From: a virus
Virus record (IMG/VR): IMGVR_UViG_3300030329_003020
Coordinates: 1-24,129 of that record
Direction: 5' to 3' (one strand)
Length of the DNA stretch: 24,129 nucleotides
The first letter of the stretch is position 1. Each line of letters opens with the position of its first letter. The notes under the pieces are model-generated. The model was given only the letters and a program-made list of their open reading frames with translations. It was not told where the DNA came from and did not search any database. The position numbers were made by a program, and so were the translations under genes. Positions 3,402 through 23,756 of the stretch are shown piece by piece.

Positions 3402-4268
3402 ATGGCTTATTTAGACGCAACCACAGGTGCTAATTTTATACCTGAATTATGGGCAGAACCTATTTTTAAGTTCTACGAAAGAAAACTTAAATTAAAAAAT
3501 TCAGTTGATGATTATAGTGCCTTAGTTAAGGATGCAGGGGATACAGTACACATTCCTAAAATCCAAATGGATGGAACAAATGATAAAGCTGCTTCTACTG
3601 CAGTAACTTTTTCTATTGCAGGAACAGAAGGTAAAGTAGATTTATCAATCAACAAACACAAATATCTTGCTAACATCTTTGAGGATATTGTAGCAATTCA
3701 ATCAAATTCTGAATTGTTAACAAAATACACAAGAATGATGGGAGAAAGTCTTGCTCGTGGAGTAGAAACTGATTTATGGGCAGAGCTTGATGGTTTTCAA
3801 ACCACACAAGACTTATCAGCAGATAATACATTTGCAGTAGCAGACTTAGAAGCATTATTATCTAGTTTATATGGTAATGATTTAGACCCTAATGATTGCT
3901 CTCTTGCTGTAAATTCAACAATTATGGCTGATATAATGAATCCATCATCAGGTGTAGCTTCTTACTTTATAAGACAAGATGCAGTAGGTGGAAATGGAAC
4001 AGAGCTTAAAACAGGTGCTGTTGGCTTGATTTATGGCATGGATGTATTTTATTCTCGTGCTATATCAACATCAGGTACAGACAATACTGTTGTAGGAGCT
4101 GCTTATCCATCTGATGCGTGTGTGTTTGCTGCACAAACAGATGTAAGAGTTCAATCTCAATATGATGTTGAATTCTTAGGTACAAAAGTAGTTGCTGATA
4201 TGATTTATGGTGCTAAACTTATAGATGAATCAGGCGATATTAGAGGAGTAAACTTACTTAATCCTTAA
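3402..4268 (+). CDS. Major capsid protein
   Basis: 288-residue coat protein expected to form the icosahedral shell (HK97-like fold inferred). It begins with a short N-arm (FIPELWAEPIFKFYERKLKL) typical of coat proteins, followed by 'GDTVHIPKI' beta region around residues 45-55 and a long spine-helix region near residues 95-125, with an A-domain-like Gly/Ser/Thr-rich section and a C-terminal 'GAKLIDESGDIRGVNLL' strand. The gene follows the scaffold by 21 bases and has a strong AAGGAG ribosome site. It is followed by a stable hairpin, as often found after highly expressed capsid genes. No cleaved delta-domain is evident, consistent with a separate scaffold. Confidence 0.9.
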   Translation: MAYLDATTGANFIPELWAEPIFKFYERKLKLKNSVDDYSALVKDAGDTVHIPKIQMDGTNDKAASTAVTFSIAGTEGKVDLSINKHKYLANIFEDIVAIQSNSELLTKYTRMMGESLARGVETDLWAELDGFQTTQDLSADNTFAVADLEALLSSLYGNDLDPNDCSLAVNSTIMADIMNPSSGVASYFIRQDAVGGNGTELKTGAVGLIYGMDVFYSRAISTSGTDNTVVGAAYPSDACVFAAQTDVRVQSQYDVEFLGTKVVADMIYGAKLIDESGDIRGVNLLNP

Positions 4269-4498: not shown

Positions 4499-4675
4499 AT
4501 GTCTAAGCCAAGAGTTGTTCGTAAAAAGGGTGATTTAACAGGTGCAGGTAAAGGTGATTGGTATAGAATTAATCTACAAGACGAACAATATAAAAACAAT
4601 TATGATAAAATCTTTGGTAAGAAAGATTTATTAGTAGAAAAAAAATTGATTTCAAAAGATGAATCTTCTAAATGA
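4499..4675 (+). CDS. Small basic protein, unknown
   Basis: A 58-residue frame from ATG 4499, three bases after the previous stop, ending inside the lysozyme start (17-base overlap in a different frame). It is basic, with Gly/Lys-rich N-terminal part (residues 8-19) and a Tyr/Asn/Lys-rich middle. No membrane segment and no motif that I recognise. There is no strong ribosome site of its own, so coupling to the preceding gene is likely. Its place between capsid and endolysin does not settle its role. Confidence 0.5.
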   Translation: MSKPRVVRKKGDLTGAGKGDWYRINLQDEQYKNNYDKIFGKKDLLVEKKLISKDESSK

Positions 4676-5063
4676 AATAAAAAAGCATGAAGGTTTTAGA
4701 TCAAGAGTTTATAAGTGTACAGAGGGTTATGACACTATAGGCTATGGCTTTGCTATAAAAGACTTAGAGCTTACAGAAGAAATAGCAGAGCTTATATTGA
4801 CAAAAAAGTTAGCTGAACTACAGCTTAGAATCTGCAATGCTTTTGAATGGTTTATAGACAGCCCACAAGATGTCCAAGATGTTGTAACAAATATGTGTTA
4901 TCAATTAGGACTTTCAGGTTTTTCAAAATTTAAAAAGACTATCTATTATTTAGAAACACAACAATATGACGAAGCTGCAGATGAGATGCTTGACTCACTA
5001 TGGGCTAAACAAACACCAAATAGAGCAAAAGAATTAAGCAACATTATTCGTAGCTTGCTGTAA
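4659..5063 (+). CDS. Endolysin, T4-type lysozyme (GH24)
   Basis: A 134-residue muramidase that cuts the N-acetylmuramic acid to N-acetylglucosamine bond in peptidoglycan at the end of infection. It aligns by eye with T4 lysozyme: the N-terminal HEGFR...YKCTEGYDTIGYG block, a middle NMCYQLGLSGFSKF block (T4 NMVFQMGETGVAGF), and the C-terminal QTPNRAKEL block at about residues 118-126 (T4 QTPNRAKRV). Catalytic Glu11 and Thr26 are present; the Asp20 position is Cys20, which fits the E-8aa-D/C-5aa-T triad known in this family and need not mean loss of activity. It is shorter than T4 lysozyme (164). No signal peptide or SAR segment is seen, so a holin is needed for export. Confidence 0.9.
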   Translation: MNLLNEIKKHEGFRSRVYKCTEGYDTIGYGFAIKDLELTEEIAELILTKKLAELQLRICNAFEWFIDSPQDVQDVVTNMCYQLGLSGFSKFKKTIYYLETQQYDEAADEMLDSLWAKQTPNRAKELSNIIRSLL

Positions 5064-14426: not shown

Positions 14427-14818
14427 GTCAGTACGAATCATATCCTTATACAGCACAAGTACCTGTAAGCATTGATGGTAAATACCCAACTTGGGAGTTT
14501 AGATCAGATAAAGATGTTTGGAAGGTAATAGACTTATTAATAGAAGAAGTAAAGGAAACTAATGAATCAAAAGGCACAGAGTTTGATATAACACAATCTA
14601 TCAATGCTCAGTTGCCTTTTTTCGCTTGTAGGCATATATTATTTGACAAGCAGATACAAAAAGACATTCAGAGATACCTTTATTGTGAGAAATTTGGAAT
14701 AAGCCCCTACGAGGGTGATTTTGGTAAACAACCCTGTTTATGGGTAGATAAAGCAAATGTAATAAGAAATGCTTTTGCTAAGTTAGAAAAGAATCAAATA
14801 GATAAGGCAAAAAAATAA
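14357..14818 (+). CDS. Tail assembly chaperone T-like part, probably read by -1 frameshift
   Basis: Open frame overlapping the G-like gene by 37 bases in the -1 frame and ending on a TAATG junction with the tape measure. Independent start at ATG 14357 is doubtful: the AAGGAG element lies only one to two bases before it, too close for initiation. The more likely product is the C-terminal domain of a G-T fusion joined at about codon 6 of this frame. The protein has CGGC (residues 21-24) and further Cys residues (FACRH, YCEK, PCLW) that could bind a metal, and a C-terminal helical part with the GDFGKQPCLWVDKANVIRNAF segment. Its expected role is to recruit tail-tube subunits to the chaperone-coated tape measure. 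Confidence 0.7.
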   Translation: MYESGGRRSLQIGLNITAEPCGGCQYESYPYTAQVPVSIDGKYPTWEFRSDKDVWKVIDLLIEEVKETNESKGTEFDITQSINAQLPFFACRHILFDKQIQKDIQRYLYCEKFGISPYEGDFGKQPCLWVDKANVIRNAFAKLEKNQIDKAKK

Positions 14819-16842
14819 TGGCACAAGAAAACATAACAATTAAATTTACCCCAGAAGGCGATAAAGCTCTAACTATCGCTATTAAAAATCTTGACATAGC
14901 TACAAAAAGACTTCAAGGAACAACTTCTATATATGAAAAAGAATTAAAAAGAATGGGCTTAACTCAAGCCCAATCTAATAAATTTTTAAAACAGGGAACA
15001 AAGAATTTAAGACTACAATCAGGTGCTTTTGCTACACTTCGTTCTAATTTACTTTTATATTCTTTCGCAGTTGGATTAGCTAATAAAGCTATAGTTTCTT
15101 TTGTTGAGAAATCATCTAAGATTGAAGGATTAGAAGCAGGATTTAATTCACTAATTAGGACTGTGGGTGGTAATGAAAAATCATTTTCCAAACTTCAAAA
15201 AGCAGTAGACCATACTGTAAATTCAACAGATTTACTTAAACAAGCCAATAATGCTATGATGCTTGGGGTTGTTAAATCAGATGATGAATTATCACAATTA
15301 TTTGATACTGCTCAGAGATTAGGTAAGGCATTAGGTGTTGATACAACAGATGCTGTTAATTCTCTTGTTACAGGTATGGGTCGTCAATCAAAACTTATGC
15401 TTGATAATCTGGGTATTATTGTACAATCTGAAGTAGCCTATGAAAGATATGCTAAAAAATTAGGAATATCATCTTCTGCATTAACTGATCATCAGAAAAA
15501 ACAAGCATTTAATGAAGAAACATTAAGAATAGCAAAAGGGATGGTTGATGAACTTGGAGAAGAAAATATAAGCACAGCAGAGGCTTTAAAACAAATGGAA
15601 GTTGCCACTCACGACTTAAATATTGCTGTGGGTAAAGCATTAGCTCCTGCTGTTAGGGCTGCTGCTAAGGCATTAGTTTTATTAGCAGAAAATATGGATG
15701 CGAAAGCTGTTAGGAAATATGGAACTGCAATTTTAGCTACAGGAGTTGCATATTTAGCATTTTCAGGTGCTGCAATGAGGGCTGCAAAAGCATCATTGAT
15801 GTTTATAAAAGCAAATAAAGCATTTCTCGCAACAATGTTAGCTGTTACAGCAGTAGTAGAAGTTTTAGACCAAAAATTTGATATGTTTGGTACTGAAGAA
15901 TTATCAGATGAAATGAAAAAATTAAAAGCAGAGATGGATAAGATGAATGATTCAACCCTTAACTCTGTAGATGCTGTAGAAAAGTTTGAAGTAGCCTTAA
16001 TTAGATATATGGGGGTAGCAAGAAGGCAAGAAAAGGTAGATACTGACTTACTCGTTGTTAACCAAAAATTAAATAAATTTAGAAAGGAAGCTGCTGAAGG
16101 CACAGAAGCATATCATACAGCATTAGGTTTTGTTGCTACTAATGCTGAAGAAGCAGCAGAGATGTTGGCACTATTAACAGAAAGACAAATACTTCAAAGA
16201 GAAAAAATTGAAGGACAAGCTATTACAATTCAAATGTGGGCTGATCAAATATTTGGTGTGGCGAGTGCTTATAATAAATTATCACAAGCACAACTTGATG
16301 CAGATAGAAAAGGAGCATTAGCTGCAGCTAATAATATTAGAAATGAAAAAAGAAGGGAAAAAGAAATAGCAAAAATAGAGGCTAAATTTGAAAAGAAACA
16401 AGATAAGCTCAATAAGAGAAAAAAACAAATAGCTGTGGCAGAAACACTTATGAATACCTCTACTGCTATAATGAAAACTTATGCTGAATATGGACCAACT
16501 CCTACAGGGATAGCTTTAGCAATATTAATGGGTATACAAGGAGCATTGCAAGTGGCAACAATTAAAGCACAAAAATTTGAACAGGGTGGTTTGGTTGGTG
16601 GCAGGCGACATTCTCAAGGTGGAACTATGATAGAAGCAGAAAGAGGTGAGTTTGTTATGAGTCGTAGTGCTGTAAGTGCTGTAGGAATAGAAACAATGAA
16701 CAGAATTAATGCAGGTGGTGGAGCAGGAAATGTTAATATATCATTTGCAGGCAATGTAATGTCAGATGATTTTATAGAGTCAGAGGCAATACCTAAAATT
16801 AAAGAGGCAATTCGCAGAGGTGCTGATATAGGAGTTAGTTAA
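14818..16842 (+). CDS. Tail tape measure protein
   Basis: 674-residue ruler that sets tail length and is ejected with DNA. Signs: an N-terminal helical region; 'DAVNSLVTGMGRQSKLMLDNLGI' at about residues 180-202, a characteristic tape-measure block; a hydrophobic stretch at about residues 296-350 (several membrane-length segments) that could insert in the host membrane; a Lys/Glu coiled coil at about 505-545; and the C-terminal 'QGGLVGGRRHSQGGTMIEAERGEFVMSRSAV' type repeat zone common to these proteins. At the usual 0.15 nm per residue the tail would be about 100 nm. No lytic transglycosylase or peptidase domain is visible. Starts at a TAATG junction after the chaperone frame. Confidence 0.9.
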   Translation: MAQENITIKFTPEGDKALTIAIKNLDIATKRLQGTTSIYEKELKRMGLTQAQSNKFLKQGTKNLRLQSGAFATLRSNLLLYSFAVGLANKAIVSFVEKSSKIEGLEAGFNSLIRTVGGNEKSFSKLQKAVDHTVNSTDLLKQANNAMMLGVVKSDDELSQLFDTAQRLGKALGVDTTDAVNSLVTGMGRQSKLMLDNLGIIVQSEVAYERYAKKLGISSSALTDHQKKQAFNEETLRIAKGMVDELGEENISTAEALKQMEVATHDLNIAVGKALAPAVRAAAKALVLLAENMDAKAVRKYGTAILATGVAYLAFSGAAMRAAKASLMFIKANKAFLATMLAVTAVVEVLDQKFDMFGTEELSDEMKKLKAEMDKMNDSTLNSVDAVEKFEVALIRYMGVARRQEKVDTDLLVVNQKLNKFRKEAAEGTEAYHTALGFVATNAEEAAEMLALLTERQILQREKIEGQAITIQMWADQIFGVASAYNKLSQAQLDADRKGALAAANNIRNEKRREKEIAKIEAKFEKKQDKLNKRKKQIAVAETLMNTSTAIMKTYAEYGPTPTGIALAILMGIQGALQVATIKAQKFEQGGLVGGRRHSQGGTMIEAERGEFVMSRSAVSAVGIETMNRINAGGGAGNVNISFAGNVMSDDFIESEAIPKIKEAIRRGADIGVS

Positions 16843-19800
16843 TGTTAGATTTATCTCCAAAATTCTCCCAAGATGTAGAATCAAAACAAACCAATATAAG
16901 TCCTTTAGTTGTTATAGATGAAGATATTTATATTTCAACAGTTAAAGGTTTATTCGATAACAATCTGTTTTTTGAAGATTATGATCTAAATATATCAAAT
17001 ATAACAGATTCAATCAATGTTGATAGCAGAAATATACAGATAAATAAGCTCACACTTACTTTAAGCAACTTCCCTAAAAATGGGCAAAGATTTAGCGATT
17101 TTGTGTTTGAAAGGGGTTTGCTTAATAAAGGTGTAAAAGTCTATTATAAGACACAATCTTGCAGGAATTTAGATGATTGTATGCTTATATTTAATGGAAC
17201 TATAAGAAAATTAACACACGACTCTAAAACTATAAGAATTGAGCTTGAAGATCTAACTGAAGATAAACTTAAAAAAGAAGTTCCAATTTCAAGAACAGGA
17301 CATCAAAACCCTTATAATAAAGATTATGTAAATGTTCCTTTTCCTATTGTTTATGGAGCAGTAGATAAGTCTCCTGCTATTCCTGTTTTGCAAACAAATA
17401 ATAGCGATAATAATAGTACAAATATTACAATAGTTCCAGATGCTGTTGATATTATCGATAGCGATAGAGATATAAGGGTAGCAGGATTTACTGAAAATCC
17501 ATTATATATCTATAAAGATGATTACTATCAAGTAACAGAAAATTTCAATTCTAATGTTTTATCTTTTCCTGAAGATTTTGATGTTAAAGATTCTGAACAA
17601 TATATTACTTCAGGTTCTCATATAGAGATAAGAAAGCTATTTAATGGAATTGCACCACAAAATGCTCCTGCTTTTAACGAATTTCAATGTATTAAAGAGA
17701 GAAAACCAAATCAATGTTTAATTGCAAATAATTTGAATGAGAGTCAATTAGATGACAATAATTATCCTTTTATAAACCAGCAAGTATCAATTAATAATCC
17801 TGAATTTTCTATAGACAATGAATATGAGACTTATTCTAAAATACCTGATACAGAAGAAGATGTACTAAATACTGATAAAATTTATGAAGGATTTAGAACA
17901 TTTGCTTATGATGCTTCAAATAATAGAAAGGGATATTTTATGCCTTCAAGTGGGTGTAATTGGAGTGGAGTTGTATTTCAATGGCTAAATTCATTTATGC
18001 ACTCAAATAATTTGAATGGTTCTGATGACCCTCATATTGTATATAAACATATTCCAACAGCTAAATCAATGAAACGAGAAGCAGAATGGGCATTAAGAGA
18101 TGAATTTAATTTGTATAATAATGGAACAGCTATGCAAGTGTTTAAAGATTCAGGAAATGATAATCAGCCATTTCACGAGCAATATCCTGATGAATATAAA
18201 GCAAAAATAAATGTTTCAAGCTCAAATAATTTAATTAGTAATGTAAATAATGGAAATTGGTTTATTGATAATGCCCCTGAGGGGTCGTCTATTGCAAGCC
18301 CACAACCTATATTTTTAAAATATAAAATTAAAAACAGCTTAATTGAGCAATTAGGGTTTGAAGAAGTTTGGATTACTATGGATAATGGAACAATACAAGA
18401 GCCTTTAGATGGAACTTCTGTTAGAATATATAATATTTTTGAGGTAGAAAATTCTTATCCTCATTTATTTAATTCAGAAGATTTTGCAGAATTTGCCCCA
18501 ACTGACGTAACAACATCATTTCAAGACCAAAGGATGCACTTTAGGAGTTATAAAGGAAAATTAATACATGAAGATAACAGCTATCCATATACATCTTCTG
18601 GCAATGGATTTTCAGACACAACTTGGTTTGGAGCTTATGGATACAATCAAGCAGGGTGGAATGCAACAAGAACAAGAAAAAAAGATATATTAGCAGATTC
18701 AAATAGTTCTTGGGTTATTTGGGCTAAAAAAAGAGTAGATGGAGTTGGTTCTCATAGAGACGACAGTTTGCTTAATTATGGATATGATCATGATACCCCT
18801 TTTGACTCAGAAGAATATAGTAATTTTAAAGAAAGAATACATATTAATGCCAATACTATGTATCCTTGTGAGCATAGAGGACATTACAAATCAAGCTATG
18901 GAAGTGGTTCAGGCTATGTTTTGTCTGGAATCAGTTATGGAATATTGCAAAATGAAAATTCAGAGACATTTACAATACACGATAATTACTCTCCAAACTC
19001 AACTCCTGATTCAAGGGTAAGTTTAATATTCCCATTTAATGATTTAGATATATCAGATGAAATAAGCAATGAAACATTTTTTAAAGGAACTGTGAAATGT
19101 TTTTTTGATTCTGAAAACACAGACGACCAAAACAATATGAAATTTATTGTTCAGGCGTCACCTGCAGACCAAGTAGAAGGAGCAGAAGGAGAATTGATTT
19201 ATGAAACATTTGATTCAGAAGATTGGTCAAGCAAATTAATAGACAAAACATTGGAGTCTTGTTTAGATAACGACCCTTTTTGGAGTACAAATTCTCAAGA
19301 TTTGATTAATGATGACAATGCAACAGATTTAAATTCAAATAATTCTTTCGTTAGTATTGATGGAGATTATAATGGAAAATTAAAAGAGTTTGAAGAATCT
19401 TCAACCTTCTCAAATATAAATTTAACTTATAGGTTGCAAACATTTAATCCATCTACAGGAGAAGATAATGTTGGTGGAAGCACATATAATGCTTCATTAT
19501 TTACACATATACACGATGTTAGTTTATTGCATTATATAATATTTGAAAAAGCATTAGATAGCCCTTTCTATTTAAATGTTAAAGGCAGAAGCAATGAAAA
19601 CAATGAATTAATAGAAAATCCATCTGAAATTATAAATCATTTTATAGAGAATGAATTAATGTTTGATAATGTATTAGACCCAGAATCATTAGAAGAATTT
19701 AATTTAATACATTCAGGAGAGAAATATGCTTTTACTATAAAAGAAGTTAAAAAAGGTAAAGAAATAATAGAAGGTTTATCAAAAAATACAAGATTATTCC

Positions 19801-20822
19801 CAAGATTTAAAAGTGGATCTAACTTTTCTTTTTCTCATATAAAAGATACATATTCTAATGAAGATGTTGCTCAAGTTATAAATACATCAGATATAATTAA
19901 ATACTCTTTTTCAAGAACCCCAATACAGAATATAAAAACAATAGTTAATGTTAAATATAAAATGGATTATGCAGAAGATGACTTTTTAGAAGAAACAGGC
20001 TATGTTGATGGATATGATATGTTTGGTAAGGGAGATGGAGAAGAAGGCAGACCAGATGGATATAAATATTCTTATCTTGGTTTAGATAGAGAAGATAAAG
20101 TTTTAGAATTTGAAAGTGAATATATAAGAGACAAATCAACTGCAGAAGCATTAAGAAATTTCTTGTATATGTTTAATTGCAATCAACATAATATTTTTAA
20201 AATAAATCTTCCTGTCAGTAGGTACATTTCTTTAGAAGCAGGAGATGTTGTTCAATTTGACAGCTTAATAGAAAATGTAAGGGCTTATGGAGAAGATTAT
20301 ACTCAAGAAGTTGTAAGAAATGCACAGACAATATATCCATTTTTTATAATAACTAAAATAACAAAAAAGCTAAAAAGCATTGATATTGAATGTATGCAGC
20401 TACACGACTTAACACCTTTTAAATTCCAATGTGCTACAGGAAGTTTGACAAGACTTCAGTCTGTTAGCGATACAGGATATAGAACAAATGATGATTTTTT
20501 TATTCTTGAAAACTATTTATTTGGTGGCGAAAAATACTTTACATCTACTCAAAAACAAGTTGCAGATATAAATGATGATGGTCTTATAAATGAAAAAGAT
20601 TTAGATATGTTGCAAGAAACATTATTACCAAGTTTTGGAGATGTTAATGCAGATGGATATGTTAATATTGCAGATGTTGTTGCTCTTGTTAATCAAATTA
20701 TATCTCAAGAACAAACAACTGAAGAACAACTATCATATTTAGATTTAAATCAAGATGGTGTAGTTAATGTAGCTGATATTATTGCAGTAGTAAATCAAAT
20801 ACTTGGAGGTTCTGATGGATAA
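16842..20822 (+). CDS. Tail tip/baseplate protein with three dockerin-type calcium loops
   Basis: 1326 residues, the largest gene. Residues about 1-180 form the N-terminal domain typical of aquatic-phage tail-tip hub proteins (LSNFPKNGQRFSDFVFERG, then SCRNLDDCMLIFNGTIRKL, then PFPIVYGAVDKSPAIPVL near 160-185). The middle, about 185-1000, is a long Asn/Asp/Ser-rich beta region likely to carry receptor or cell-wall contact; a hub-like domain recurs at about 1000-1220. The C-terminus holds three EF-hand-like loops with ligands at positions 1,3,5,12: DINDDGLINEKD (1242-1253), DVNADGYVNIAD (1267-1278) and DLNQDGVVNVAD (1301-1312), each followed by a short helix. The last two are standard dockerin/F-type repeats. 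No peptidase motif seen. TAATG start, coupled to the tape measure. Confidence 0.75.
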   Translation: MLDLSPKFSQDVESKQTNISPLVVIDEDIYISTVKGLFDNNLFFEDYDLNISNITDSINVDSRNIQINKLTLTLSNFPKNGQRFSDFVFERGLLNKGVKVYYKTQSCRNLDDCMLIFNGTIRKLTHDSKTIRIELEDLTEDKLKKEVPISRTGHQNPYNKDYVNVPFPIVYGAVDKSPAIPVLQTNNSDNNSTNITIVPDAVDIIDSDRDIRVAGFTENPLYIYKDDYYQVTENFNSNVLSFPEDFDVKDSEQYITSGSHIEIRKLFNGIAPQNAPAFNEFQCIKERKPNQCLIANNLNESQLDDNNYPFINQQVSINNPEFSIDNEYETYSKIPDTEEDVLNTDKIYEGFRTFAYDASNNRKGYFMPSSGCNWSGVVFQWLNSFMHSNNLNGSDDPHIVYKHIPTAKSMKREAEWALRDEFNLYNNGTAMQVFKDSGNDNQPFHEQYPDEYKAKINVSSSNNLISNVNNGNWFIDNAPEGSSIASPQPIFLKYKIKNSLIEQLGFEEVWITMDNGTIQEPLDGTSVRIYNIFEVENSYPHLFNSEDFAEFAPTDVTTSFQDQRMHFRSYKGKLIHEDNSYPYTSSGNGFSDTTWFGAYGYNQAGWNATRTRKKDILADSNSSWVIWAKKRVDGVGSHRDDSLLNYGYDHDTPFDSEEYSNFKERIHINANTMYPCEHRGHYKSSYGSGSGYVLSGISYGILQNENSETFTIHDNYSPNSTPDSRVSLIFPFNDLDISDEISNETFFKGTVKCFFDSENTDDQNNMKFIVQASPADQVEGAEGELIYETFDSEDWSSKLIDKTLESCLDNDPFWSTNSQDLINDDNATDLNSNNSFVSIDGDYNGKLKEFEESSTFSNINLTYRLQTFNPSTGEDNVGGSTYNASLFTHIHDVSLLHYIIFEKALDSPFYLNVKGRSNENNELIENPSEIINHFIENELMFDNVLDPESLEEFNLIHSGEKYAFTIKEVKKGKEIIEGLSKNTRLFPRFKSGSNFSFSHIKDTYSNEDVAQVINTSDIIKYSFSRTPIQNIKTIVNVKYKMDYAEDDFLEETGYVDGYDMFGKGDGEEGRPDGYKYSYLGLDREDKVLEFESEYIRDKSTAEALRNFLYMFNCNQHNIFKINLPVSRYISLEAGDVVQFDSLIENVRAYGEDYTQEVVRNAQTIYPFFIITKITKKLKSIDIECMQLHDLTPFKFQCATGSLTRLQSVSDTGYRTNDDFFILENYLFGGEKYFTSTQKQVADINDDGLINEKDLDMLQETLLPSFGDVNADGYVNIADVVALVNQIISQEQTTEEQLSYLDLNQDGVVNVADIIAVVNQILGGSDG
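20565..20819 (+). other. Dockerin-type Ca2+-binding domain (three loops) in tail protein
   Basis: This is the coding span of residues 1242-1326 of the tail-tip protein. Dockerins bind cohesin modules or other surface scaffolds in a calcium-dependent way and normally have two loop-helix repeats. Here loops two and three match the consensus closely (D-x-N-x-D-G-x-V-N-x-x-D followed by a Val/Ile-rich helix and NQI), and the first is a weaker additional one. The base composition is not different from the rest of the gene. Confidence 0.8.
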
Positions 20823-21663
20823 CAAGACAAAAGCATTAGTGCAATTAAATAGATTGATTTATAATTCTGCATTTGAAAATCCAACACATGGAGAGATTAA
20901 TATAGTTTCTAATGAAGTTAAATTTGTAAAGAGTGGAATATTTAAATCTTTAAAAATATTTTACAAGGGTAGAGTCTTTATAGAAAACAAACTTCCTGAT
21001 GGATATGGAATTAGAGTTACAGGTAGAGTTATTTATATCTATAATTTAATGGGTAAAGATCTAAATGATGATTTATTATTTACATTTTTAGGTGATTTGC
21101 AAATCATAAGAGCAGAAGCGAGGACATTCTCTGGATACAGATTTGTGCTATCAATTACAGATGAAAATTTAGATGAATTAATCAGCAATAGTAAAACAAA
21201 TGTTGAAGATGATACTATCTTATTGTTCCCAAGAGAAACATTAGAAAAAGAATCAGATAGTATAAATAAAAGCCAAGTTGATGATGATTCAATTAAGGGT
21301 TTATATACAGATAAACCAATAAAAGATGGATATACAGGATATTATAATTACCACCCAAAAGAAAAAATTTATATGACAGGTAAAAAGCTAACAAATGAGT
21401 CTAAACCAATATTAGACAGCAAGCTGCCTATTAAAAGTGCAAATATACAAAAATCTATTAAAAGAGTTTCTAATAAGATTGTACGAACTATAGAAAGAAA
21501 AGGGGTAGAAACATTAGGAAAAACTGAAGAAATAAAAGAAACACCTGTAAGAACATTTGAAGAAGAAGTTAGAGTAGAAGAAAAGCCAATAATAAAAGAG
21601 ACAACAATAATACAATTAAATAAAGACAGAAAAGATATAAAAACTTATGAAGGGGGTAAATAA
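20815..21663 (+). CDS. Unrecognised virion-associated protein with charged tail
   Basis: 282 residues from ATG 20815, chosen because GGAGG (20805-20809) lies five bases upstream; it overlaps the end of the dockerin-bearing gene by eight bases. Residues about 1-115 look like a beta fold (GEINIVSNEVKFVKSGIFKSLKIFYKG, then YGIRVTGRVIYIYNL); residues about 125-282 are Lys/Glu/Asp/Thr-rich, low complexity and probably disordered, with repeated 'KETP', 'EEKPIIKET' type segments. No catalytic motif, signal peptide or membrane helix. Placement between two tail structural genes suggests a tail-associated role. It may hold a partner of the preceding protein, but this is a guess. Confidence 0.65.
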   Translation: MDNKTKALVQLNRLIYNSAFENPTHGEINIVSNEVKFVKSGIFKSLKIFYKGRVFIENKLPDGYGIRVTGRVIYIYNLMGKDLNDDLLFTFLGDLQIIRAEARTFSGYRFVLSITDENLDELISNSKTNVEDDTILLFPRETLEKESDSINKSQVDDDSIKGLYTDKPIKDGYTGYYNYHPKEKIYMTGKKLTNESKPILDSKLPIKSANIQKSIKRVSNKIVRTIERKGVETLGKTEEIKETPVRTFEEEVRVEEKPIIKETTIIQLNKDRKDIKTYEGGK

Positions 21664-21665
21664 TA

Positions 21666-22775
21666 ATGGCTTATCAAAATGTAGGGAAACCAAGATTTTT
21701 TATAGACAACTACCAATATTTAAGAGCATTGGGTTTAGCAGGAGATGATTATATAAGTGAAGATGATAATTTAGAAGCAGGTGGTTTAAAAAATCCATTT
21801 AATAATCCTAATGCCTTTAATATGACTCCTGAAAAAGATGAAGATATGTCTATGGGATATAGATATTTTATACCTTGTGGAGACCAATTAGCAGGAATGG
21901 ACTTTTCTAATAATATGAAATGGTATACTGCTATACTTAATCACAATTTAGGCGACTCTGGTTTTATAAGGATTAATGCTCCTGTTTATTATAATAATAT
22001 ATCATTAGACAACCCAATAGCAGATACAGATTTTACAGAAATATTAAATGCAGAAAAGGGGAATATGCCTCAAAGTGGAACTTCTATGTTTTATTCAGAC
22101 AATCCTTTTTCTGAAGATACAAGATACACAGGGTTTACTCTTACACACGATGACCACCCAGAGACTGATATATCTAATTTAAAAATTGGAGCAATAAGTC
22201 AAGGTGTTATGTATACAATGTCTCACTCTGTTGATTTAGATTTAACAATGGAAGTAGAATTAGATGGTTTTGATAGCAATCAAACACTTGGTGGCTCTAC
22301 TTTAACTAACATAAGGTATACAGGAAGCCCAAATTGGGCTAATAATGGGCAGTTTATAAATCCTTTTGGTGTTGGTTCATATTCAAATAATAGTGCCTTA
22401 AATGGGGCAAAAAGAAATGGTAGAAGAAGTTGGAAATTAAAGTTCTCTCTGATGTCTGCTGAAGATTTATTTGCATCTAATTATATGCTTAATGATTATT
22501 TGCAAAATGATGGTAATACAGGAAATTATAATTCAGATGATTTAAGTACAGATGGTGATAAGTTTGAATATAATGTATTTACTGATGATTCCTTTATAGC
22601 ACAAGTTTGGAATAAAACTTTAGGTGGGGCATTGCCTTTTATATTTCAACCTGATTCAAACAACAATCAGGCAGATCAATTCTGTCTTGCTAAATTTGAC
22701 CAAGACTCTCTGTCTATGAAGCAATCAGCTCATAATGTGTATGACTTTAGTGTTGTGATTCGTGAGGTTTGGTAG
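21666..22775 (+). CDS. Virion structural protein, distal tail type
   Basis: 369 residues, Asn/Asp/Gly-rich with aromatic residues, typical of distal tail proteins of aquatic siphophages. N-terminal segment KPRFFIDNYQYLRALG (about 7-22) and the block 'DMSMGYRYFIPCGDQLAGMDFSNNMKWYTAILNHNLGDSGF' (about 60-100) mark it as the family seen next to tail-tip genes. C-terminal section contains strands and Trp residues, ending in VVIREVW. No enzyme motif. Strong purine-rich ribosome site, ATG two bases after the previous stop. Its end overlaps the converging minus-strand nuclease gene by 29 bases. Possible role in the baseplate or tail-tip lattice. Confidence 0.6.
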   Translation: MAYQNVGKPRFFIDNYQYLRALGLAGDDYISEDDNLEAGGLKNPFNNPNAFNMTPEKDEDMSMGYRYFIPCGDQLAGMDFSNNMKWYTAILNHNLGDSGFIRINAPVYYNNISLDNPIADTDFTEILNAEKGNMPQSGTSMFYSDNPFSEDTRYTGFTLTHDDHPETDISNLKIGAISQGVMYTMSHSVDLDLTMEVELDGFDSNQTLGGSTLTNIRYTGSPNWANNGQFINPFGVGSYSNNSALNGAKRNGRRSWKLKFSLMSAEDLFASNYMLNDYLQNDGNTGNYNSDDLSTDGDKFEYNVFTDDSFIAQVWNKTLGGALPFIFQPDSNNNQADQFCLAKFDQDSLSMKQSAHNVYDFSVVIREVW

Positions 22776-23082
22776 AATCTAAAAATTTCTTATAATCATC
22801 TAAAAATTCATCATAGCGAAGTATAATATAAGTTTGACCTCTATCTTCCTTAACTACTACTGCATCTACAACTTCTGAAGGTTTTAACCACTCTGCTATC
22901 TTTTTGCGACATTTAGCTTGGATTCTTAAATCGCCTTCAAGCAGCACATCAACTTCTTCGTGCATACCTAAAGCTCTACCATTAGAACCCCAAGCTCTTT
23001 CTCCCTTAACTCCATAAGAGTGAGCTTTGTCTACTATTAACCTTTCAAATCTATTACCTTTTTGTTTGCTTGGGTGTGTCAT
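22747..23082 (-). CDS. PDDEXK nuclease, Holliday-junction-resolvase-like
   Basis: 111 residues. Visible core: KQKGNRFERLIV with Glu13, then AWGSNGRALGMHEEVDVLL with Asp45, then LRIQAKCRK with Gln55-x-Lys57. This matches the E / D / (E/Q)xK arrangement of the Hjc-type PDDEXK fold used by phages to resolve branched DNA before packaging; Gln replaces the second acidic residue as in some related nucleases. The helix-strand order (Glu helix, two strands, Lys helix) and small size also fit. It is the last gene of the leftward set, coupled by ATGA to the sigma-like gene, with AAAGGAG upstream. Its end overlaps the converging tail gene by 29 bases, leaving no intergenic room for a terminator. Confidence 0.75.
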   Translation of the reverse strand: MTHPSKQKGNRFERLIVDKAHSYGVKGERAWGSNGRALGMHEEVDVLLEGDLRIQAKCRKKIAEWLKPSEVVDAVVVKEDRGQTYIILRYDEFLDDYKKFLDSTKPHESQH

Positions 23083-23756
23083 TTTTCTCCTTTTATTTTT
23101 TCATTTCTCATTGACAAACTTCTGCCATGTCTATTCTTGTAATTTCTTGCTGACTCCCATGAAATATCTTTTTCGTAAACATATTCTTTAAGCCTGTCGC
23201 TTCTCGAAAAATGCCTCAATCTTCTCATTCCTTTTTCAAAAATTTGCCTTACTCTTTCTCTTGTCAATTTATATTGTTCTGATATTTCTTTCATAGAATA
23301 TGCTCTATCTTTATTTATACCAAAATGCAATTCAATAATATCTTTTTCTCTATCTTTTAATGTATTTAGCGAGCTTAAAACATCTATCTTTAATGATTCT
23401 TTATTATTAATATCATTTACATCATAATCTGATTCTAATCCCAACAATTTATTAGATGACATGGAAATCATTTTTTCTTTAGGTATGTCTATTGTTAATT
23501 TATTGCTATTTCCTTTGTTTTTATTTATAAGTTCTTTGTATTGCTCAAATAATTGTTCCATGTCGCAATCTAAAAGAGTTGCTAATTCAACTTGAACATC
23601 TATTTCTTTAGGATAGCCCTTTAAAGAAGCAAAGTTTATAAGACTTTGATAACCAATTTTAGAAACTCTTGAAAGTTCTGCTATTGAACTATATCTACTT
23701 TTTTCTAATGCTTTCATAAAAACAGCATTTTTAAATTTTATTTCAGCTCTAATCAT
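23079..23756 (-). CDS. HTH/sigma-70 region 4 fusion regulator
   Basis: 225 residues. Residues about 24-43 form an XRE/Cro-type HTH (IAELSRVSKIGYQSLINFAS), with flanking helices through about 75. Residues about 129-184 are a clear sigma-70 region 4: LKDREKDIIELHFGI, then EISEQYKLTRERVRQIFEKGMRRLRHFSRS, closely following the primary sigma pattern LTAREAKVLRMRFGI ... FDVTRERIRQI ... LRKLRHPSRS of RpoD. Regions 1-3 are absent, so it is not a complete sigma factor. It probably binds DNA and/or the RNA polymerase beta-flap to redirect host polymerase to phage promoters or act as a late-gene switch. It has AAAAGGAG upstream and follows a small Cys-rich gene in a leftward operon. Confidence 0.85.
   Translation of the reverse strand: MIRAEIKFKNAVFMKALEKSRYSSIAELSRVSKIGYQSLINFASLKGYPKEIDVQVELATLLDCDMEQLFEQYKELINKNKGNSNKLTIDIPKEKMISMSSNKLLGLESDYDVNDINNKESLKIDVLSSLNTLKDREKDIIELHFGINKDRAYSMKEISEQYKLTRERVRQIFEKGMRRLRHFSRSDRLKEYVYEKDISWESARNYKNRHGRSLSMRNEKIKGEK

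Follow-up and report, generated by a model that had tools for sequence, protein, structure and literature searches.

The protein at the tail tip of the virus analyzed here is a gpJ-type hub that ends in a tandem of dockerins. This arrangement is conserved in a family of uncultured, probably marine phages, and the dockerins most resemble those of SAR406. Dockerins are the part by which some bacteria fix secreted proteins to the cell surface. Their pairs with cohesins, described from cellulosomes and from systems of the cell surface, are some of the strongest joints between proteins that are known. SAR406 (Marinimicrobia) is an abundant uncultured phylum of the ocean. We favor, with a probability of roughly 0.4, the reading in which the phage dockerin is a calcium-dependent ligand docking on cohesins of the host surface. 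The window, i.e., the whole stretch of DNA that was analyzed, comprises positions 1 to 24,129 of IMG/VR record IMGVR_UViG_3300030329_003020 (24,129 nucleotides).

The hub protein and its terminal dockerins

The hub gene lies in the tail operon, immediately after the tape measure gene (Table 1). We did not obtain a name for its product from PHROGs or NCBIfam. An AlphaFold2 model of residues 879-1326 (27 sequences, pLDDT 80) contains a domain, at about residues 913-1193, matching the proteins of phages JBD30 (VIA Z of 17.8), lambda (gpJ, 17.2), Chi (17.0), and T5 (pb3, 12.9), with all hub-type matches of the protein ranging from 17.8 to 12.2. Judging from this model, the main domain of the protein is a tail-tip hub of the lambda gpJ/T5 pb3 type, which bears out the placement at the tail tip proposed when only the letters had been read. 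The proteins of lambda, T5, and JBD30 have the hub fold in common, and the hub gene of the window likewise follows the tape measure gene. In lambda gpJ the receptor-binding part is the C-terminal region, whereas the window hub has the dockerin pair there instead. Hence, the dockerins occupy the place of the lambda receptor-binding part.

Table 1. Features of the tail region of the window.
Feature	Position	Strand	Basis or remark
Tape measure protein	14818..16842	+	PHROG 3779, E 4e-14
Tail-tip central hub protein, 1326 aa	16842..20822	+	ORF; modelled aa 879-1326; gpJ-type structural match
gpJ-type hub domain, query A2 (aa 985-1192)	19794..20417	+	
Doc-A, degenerate dockerin	20481..20633	+	PF00404, 30.5 bits at 20493-20627, model positions 14-57
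Doc-B, canonical dockerin	20634..20807	+	PF00404, 47.5 bits at 20637-20804; fold match to 2vn5
Next gene, 282 aa, beta-sandwich at aa 24-126	20815..21663	+	Start overlaps hub end
Conserved tail-module protein, 369 aa, after cohesin-like gene	21666..22775	+	ORF; synteny in L006, L007, L010, L020

Outside this region, a phage lysozyme gene (4659-5063, plus strand) directly follows a capsid-like gene (3402-4268). The minus strand encodes a phage protein with a sigma-70 region 4 domain (23079-23756; Pfam, 51.9 bits) and a small protein (22747-23082) with a match to PDDEXK endonucleases below threshold.

The hub protein has three D-x-N-x-D-G loops: DINDDGLINEKD (aa 1242-1253, nt 20565-20600), DVNADGYVNIAD (aa 1267-1278, nt 20640-20675), and DLNQDGVVNVAD (aa 1301-1312, nt 20742-20777). 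Shuffles of the same protein contain 0.0015 such loops on average. When the whole protein was compared with the Dockerin_1 profile (PF00404), it scored 54.9 bits at residues 1266-1321, for a cut-off of 22.9. The score and the shuffle expectation exclude a chance EF-hand. Two separate stretches exceed the cut-off. The downstream one, Doc-B, carries the second and third loops, each of 12 residues and followed by a helix, with D or N at positions 1, 3, and 5 and D at position 12. Its model superposes on the Clostridium cellulolyticum dockerin 2vn5 with an rmsd of 1.5 over 55 residues (VIA Z of 9.0), and 2vn6 and 2ccl are also among the matches; the pLDDT of this part is mostly 71-84, in a model that includes no metal. 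The C-terminal domain is, as modelled, a true dockerin fold, and the ligand residues present in its loops suggest that they bind Ca2+.

The upstream stretch, Doc-A, aligns to positions 14-57 of the profile and is hence a dockerin minus its first loop: that loop is gone, there is a KYFT..QK linker, and the second loop is DINDDGLINEKD. Its helical fold is predicted confidently and its conservation is recognizable across the phage family. In one relative (L076) Doc-A is complete, with two loops (PF00404 positions 2-57, 26.2 bits), and it is also complete in L081 and L084. At the end of the window protein there are therefore two dockerins, the first decayed and the second intact. We rejected a single dockerin with three loops because the extra loop belongs to the decayed dockerin, as the PF00404 stretch and the complete copies in relatives show. 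The sequence-only reading had seen three loops at the end of the protein and had called them a dockerin, and both statements hold against the shuffles, the profile, and the predicted structure. It had set the start at 20565, where there is indeed a loop, but the dockerin region begins earlier, at about nt 20481. The third loop that it found unusual is better read as the remaining hand of the degenerate dockerin upstream.

Like type I dockerins (PF00404, 2vn5), Doc-B has two 12-residue calcium loops with helices and is C-terminal, but loop positions 10 and 11 of the window dockerin are I-A and V-A, unlike in 2vn5. Type I dockerins sit on secreted enzymes in the context of cellulosomes. The window dockerin has no such context: a cellulosomal dockerin is carried by a secreted enzyme degrading cell walls, and the carrier here is a phage tail hub. 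Foldseek matched the dockerin pair to the double dockerin of Clostridium thermocellum Clo1313_0689 (8x3a, E 6e-5; 8x39, E 7e-4), with an rmsd of about 13 over the pair, too poor a superposition to show how its two members pack against each other. Both proteins have tandem dockerins, but the first dockerin of the window lacks one calcium loop, and host and function also differ. In Clo1313_0689 the first dockerin binds cohesin and the second is functionally ambiguous (PMC12484212). The literature that we found reports dockerins from cellulosomes and from archaea, and double modules of them (PMC12484212, PMC9012536). Among phages, an Escherichia coli phage protein resembles a dockerin carbohydrate-binding module (PMC5967307) and one Vibrio phage gene has BLAST similarity to a dockerin type I protein (PMC3558961). 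Our search, confined to the open literature, found no description of a dockerin on a phage tail tip.

Distribution and exchange of the hub C-terminus

We found no relative of the 1326-residue protein or of its dockerin in cultured phages. The same architecture of hub and dockerin occurs in more than 80 related virus contigs, which are probably marine, given that their signal is SAR406-like and given what is generally known of this series of samples. An assembly artefact was discarded, since many independent contigs agree. A scan with the dockerin in the query returned 47 contigs and is biased towards dockerin carriers. A scan with the hub domain only returned 135 relatives, of which 80 were kept, including 44 new unique closed hubs. 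The dockerin pair terminates 31 of these 44 hubs. Among the 13 others, nine visibly retain Doc-A, with Doc-B replaced by other modules or by nothing, and two (L100, L101) have no dockerin; L074 and L075 were placed in neither class. The C-terminus is hence an exchangeable slot on a hub that is itself retained.

When 16 diverged pairs are aligned, the columns without any variation are D at loop positions 1, 5, and 12 in each of the two hands and N at position 3 of the first loop. A larger count of loop conservation agrees, but its members were picked with the loop pattern, which makes it partly circular.

Some of the alternatives found in the slot bear motifs of exported bacterial proteins. The slots of L087 (from aa 1360 on) and L249 have GCTDPxALNYNPxA motifs that are also present in the SAR406 protein L214. 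That of L276:4809-6752 has two repeats of the GWNLIGLP/RWNLISG type, which have no Pfam match and resemble part of the SAR406 protein in L222. Another hub relative (L049:5680-10437) has a C-terminal extension of 732 residues that terminates in a dockerin pair.

Dockerins and cohesins of SAR406

A dockerin scan of GTDB genomes pointed to rumen Bacteroidales, Ruminococcus, and SAR406, and the marine lineages in it were mainly Candidatus Neomarinimicrobiota (SAR406), with up to 54% identity. Eight SAR406 genomes have 7 to 86 Dockerin_1 matches each. Five genomes (G001, G002, G003, G005, G006) are unusually rich in dockerins, with 55-86 matches per genome of 1.5-2.9 Mb. These non-cellulosomal dockerins are the nearest sequences to those of the phages and, like them, lie at the extreme C-terminus (L119, L214), at most 10 residues from the end of the ORF in 21 of 26 cases, but on bacterial exported proteins rather than on a phage hub. 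The sequence-only reading had suggested looking for cohesins in a candidate host, and they are present in 36 of the 61 sampled SAR406 genomes. One genome encodes two of them in a single protein of 2500 residues, which terminates in a sequence resembling a T9SS sorting tail, with a score under the cut-off.

Several comparisons associate the phage dockerins with this phylum. With both reference sets chosen by similarity to the phage dockerin family, 65 of 75 phage dockerins score higher against the SAR406 dockerins than against those of other genomes, and with equal samples 95% are closer to SAR406. The window dockerin scores 170 against the SAR406 protein L214, above every phage relative except L003. 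At the DNA level, it has matches in 50 SAR406 genomes out of 244, the best at 65 bits, and in 19 Bacteroidota out of 390, the best at 46 bits; the dockerin content of this Bacteroidota control was not matched to that of SAR406. Over 135-149 bases, its identity with the dockerin DNA of SAR406 is about 70%.

The host was also sought by other means. We found no CRISPR spacer match, and this route, also proposed earlier, gave no direct link to a host. Outside the dockerin, the best match covers 34 bases (L216) and was rejected as a spacer, as it is AT-rich coding sequence reading like gatA and not a CRISPR array. A search for tRNAs found none. A first hub scan of the GTDB genomes gave no matches. 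Hub relatives are about equally rare in SAR406 (3/245 genomes) and in Bacteroidota (3/395), and those of SAR406 are distant, lie in regions of 58-63% GC, and have no dockerin, so that we rejected a host assignment by provirus. Three loci (L223, L224, and L225, in genomes G193, G194, and G192) are possible proviruses in SAR406 and have neither a dockerin nor a cohesin-like neighbour. The host signal is circumstantial, and it is from sequence resemblance that we infer SAR406 as the host.

Possible partners of the dockerin on the host surface and in the virion

In the reading that we favor, three hub subunits, a trimer by analogy with gpJ, would each end in a dockerin lying at the most distal point of the tail. 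The phage dockerin would copy the C-terminal dockerin tags of host exported proteins and would dock on a surface protein of the host that bears a cohesin, as a step in attachment. Both the binding to cohesins and the role in adsorption are inferred. Pairwise distances suggest where the partner may be. Those of Doc-B correlate with the hub distances at r 0.49, and those of the neighbour gene at r 0.88 (0.85 in samples of 46 columns of the neighbour, with random samples of this size at about 0.80 or more). Since Doc-B tracks the hub poorly and the neighbour tracks it well, the dockerin seems to evolve, or to be exchanged, on its own and not in step with the other parts of the tip, and this favors an outside partner.

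The main rival places the partner in the virion. The dockerin would be an assembly joint plugging into the protein of the overlapping next gene, and the phage-borne dockerin-cohesin pair would fix an adaptor on the tail tip. A cohesin-like fold was predicted for this neighbour from reading its relatives, ahead of modelling. The PDB structures that best match the model of its residues 24-126 (pLDDT of about 95) are cohesins, with 2vo8 at a Foldseek E of 0.012 and a VIA Z of 8.5 (rmsd 4.0 over 100 residues), and clearly more than half of the 50 top-ranking VIA rows are cohesins. However, a Z near 8 can reflect a common beta-sandwich arrangement, and the domain, although its predicted fold is like that of cohesins (PF00963, 2vo8), is shorter, with about 100 residues against about 140, and has no sequence similarity to them. 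Within the window there is no match to PF00963. Pfam returned no cohesin match in 52 homologues of the neighbour and no match at all for the window copy, and hhalign against seven SAR406 cohesins gave a probability of 0.2%. Homology between the neighbour and cohesins is thus unsupported by sequence.

The gene content of the relatives bears on this joint in both directions. Among hubs with readable downstream DNA, the neighbour gene follows all 80 that bear a dockerin and is missing, together with the dockerin, from 15 distant ones, in counts that are not phylogenetically independent. Nonetheless, nine hubs without a called dockerin have the gene, three of them retaining a degenerate Doc-A and six having no dockerin at all. 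Given the hub, the distances of dockerin and neighbour show a weak partial correlation (0.14, P 0.011), absent for the next gene further on, which points slightly towards a partner in the virion, while the close tracking of the hub by the neighbour, and not by the dockerin, speaks against it. We regard the virion joint as possible, with the odds against it. The earlier proposal that the dockerin docks either on cohesins of the host or on a further protein of the virion has gained evidence in both its parts, and neither is proven; the neighbouring phage proteins did yield a cohesin-like predicted fold, without a match in sequence.

Both partners might also coexist. The virion would have its own calcium-dependent dockerin-cohesin joint, and host-like dockerins swapped into the slot would dock on cohesin-coated SAR406 cells as well, a combination that we consider unlikely. 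We are equally doubtful that the dockerins are calcium-stabilized caps or spacers of the tail tip, with no cohesin partner and of use in folding, in the stability of the trimer, or as a calcium switch. Doc-A has lost one loop yet kept its helical fold and its conservation, as expected of a structural element, but Doc-B is swapped for unrelated modules and is most like bacterial docking tags in sequence. That the dockerin was acquired passively from the host exoproteome and has no function might explain the identity with SAR406 at the DNA level but is very improbable, because more than 80 divergent contigs have retained it and its calcium ligands are invariant.

If the dockerin pairs with its cohesin-fold neighbour, this would be, to our knowledge, the first such joint in a virion. 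If it is an attachment ligand, as we favor, it points to surface cohesins as the type of receptor used by SAR406 phages, whose host range could then be probed with recombinant proteins. The phage may thus attach via the host's own docking system.
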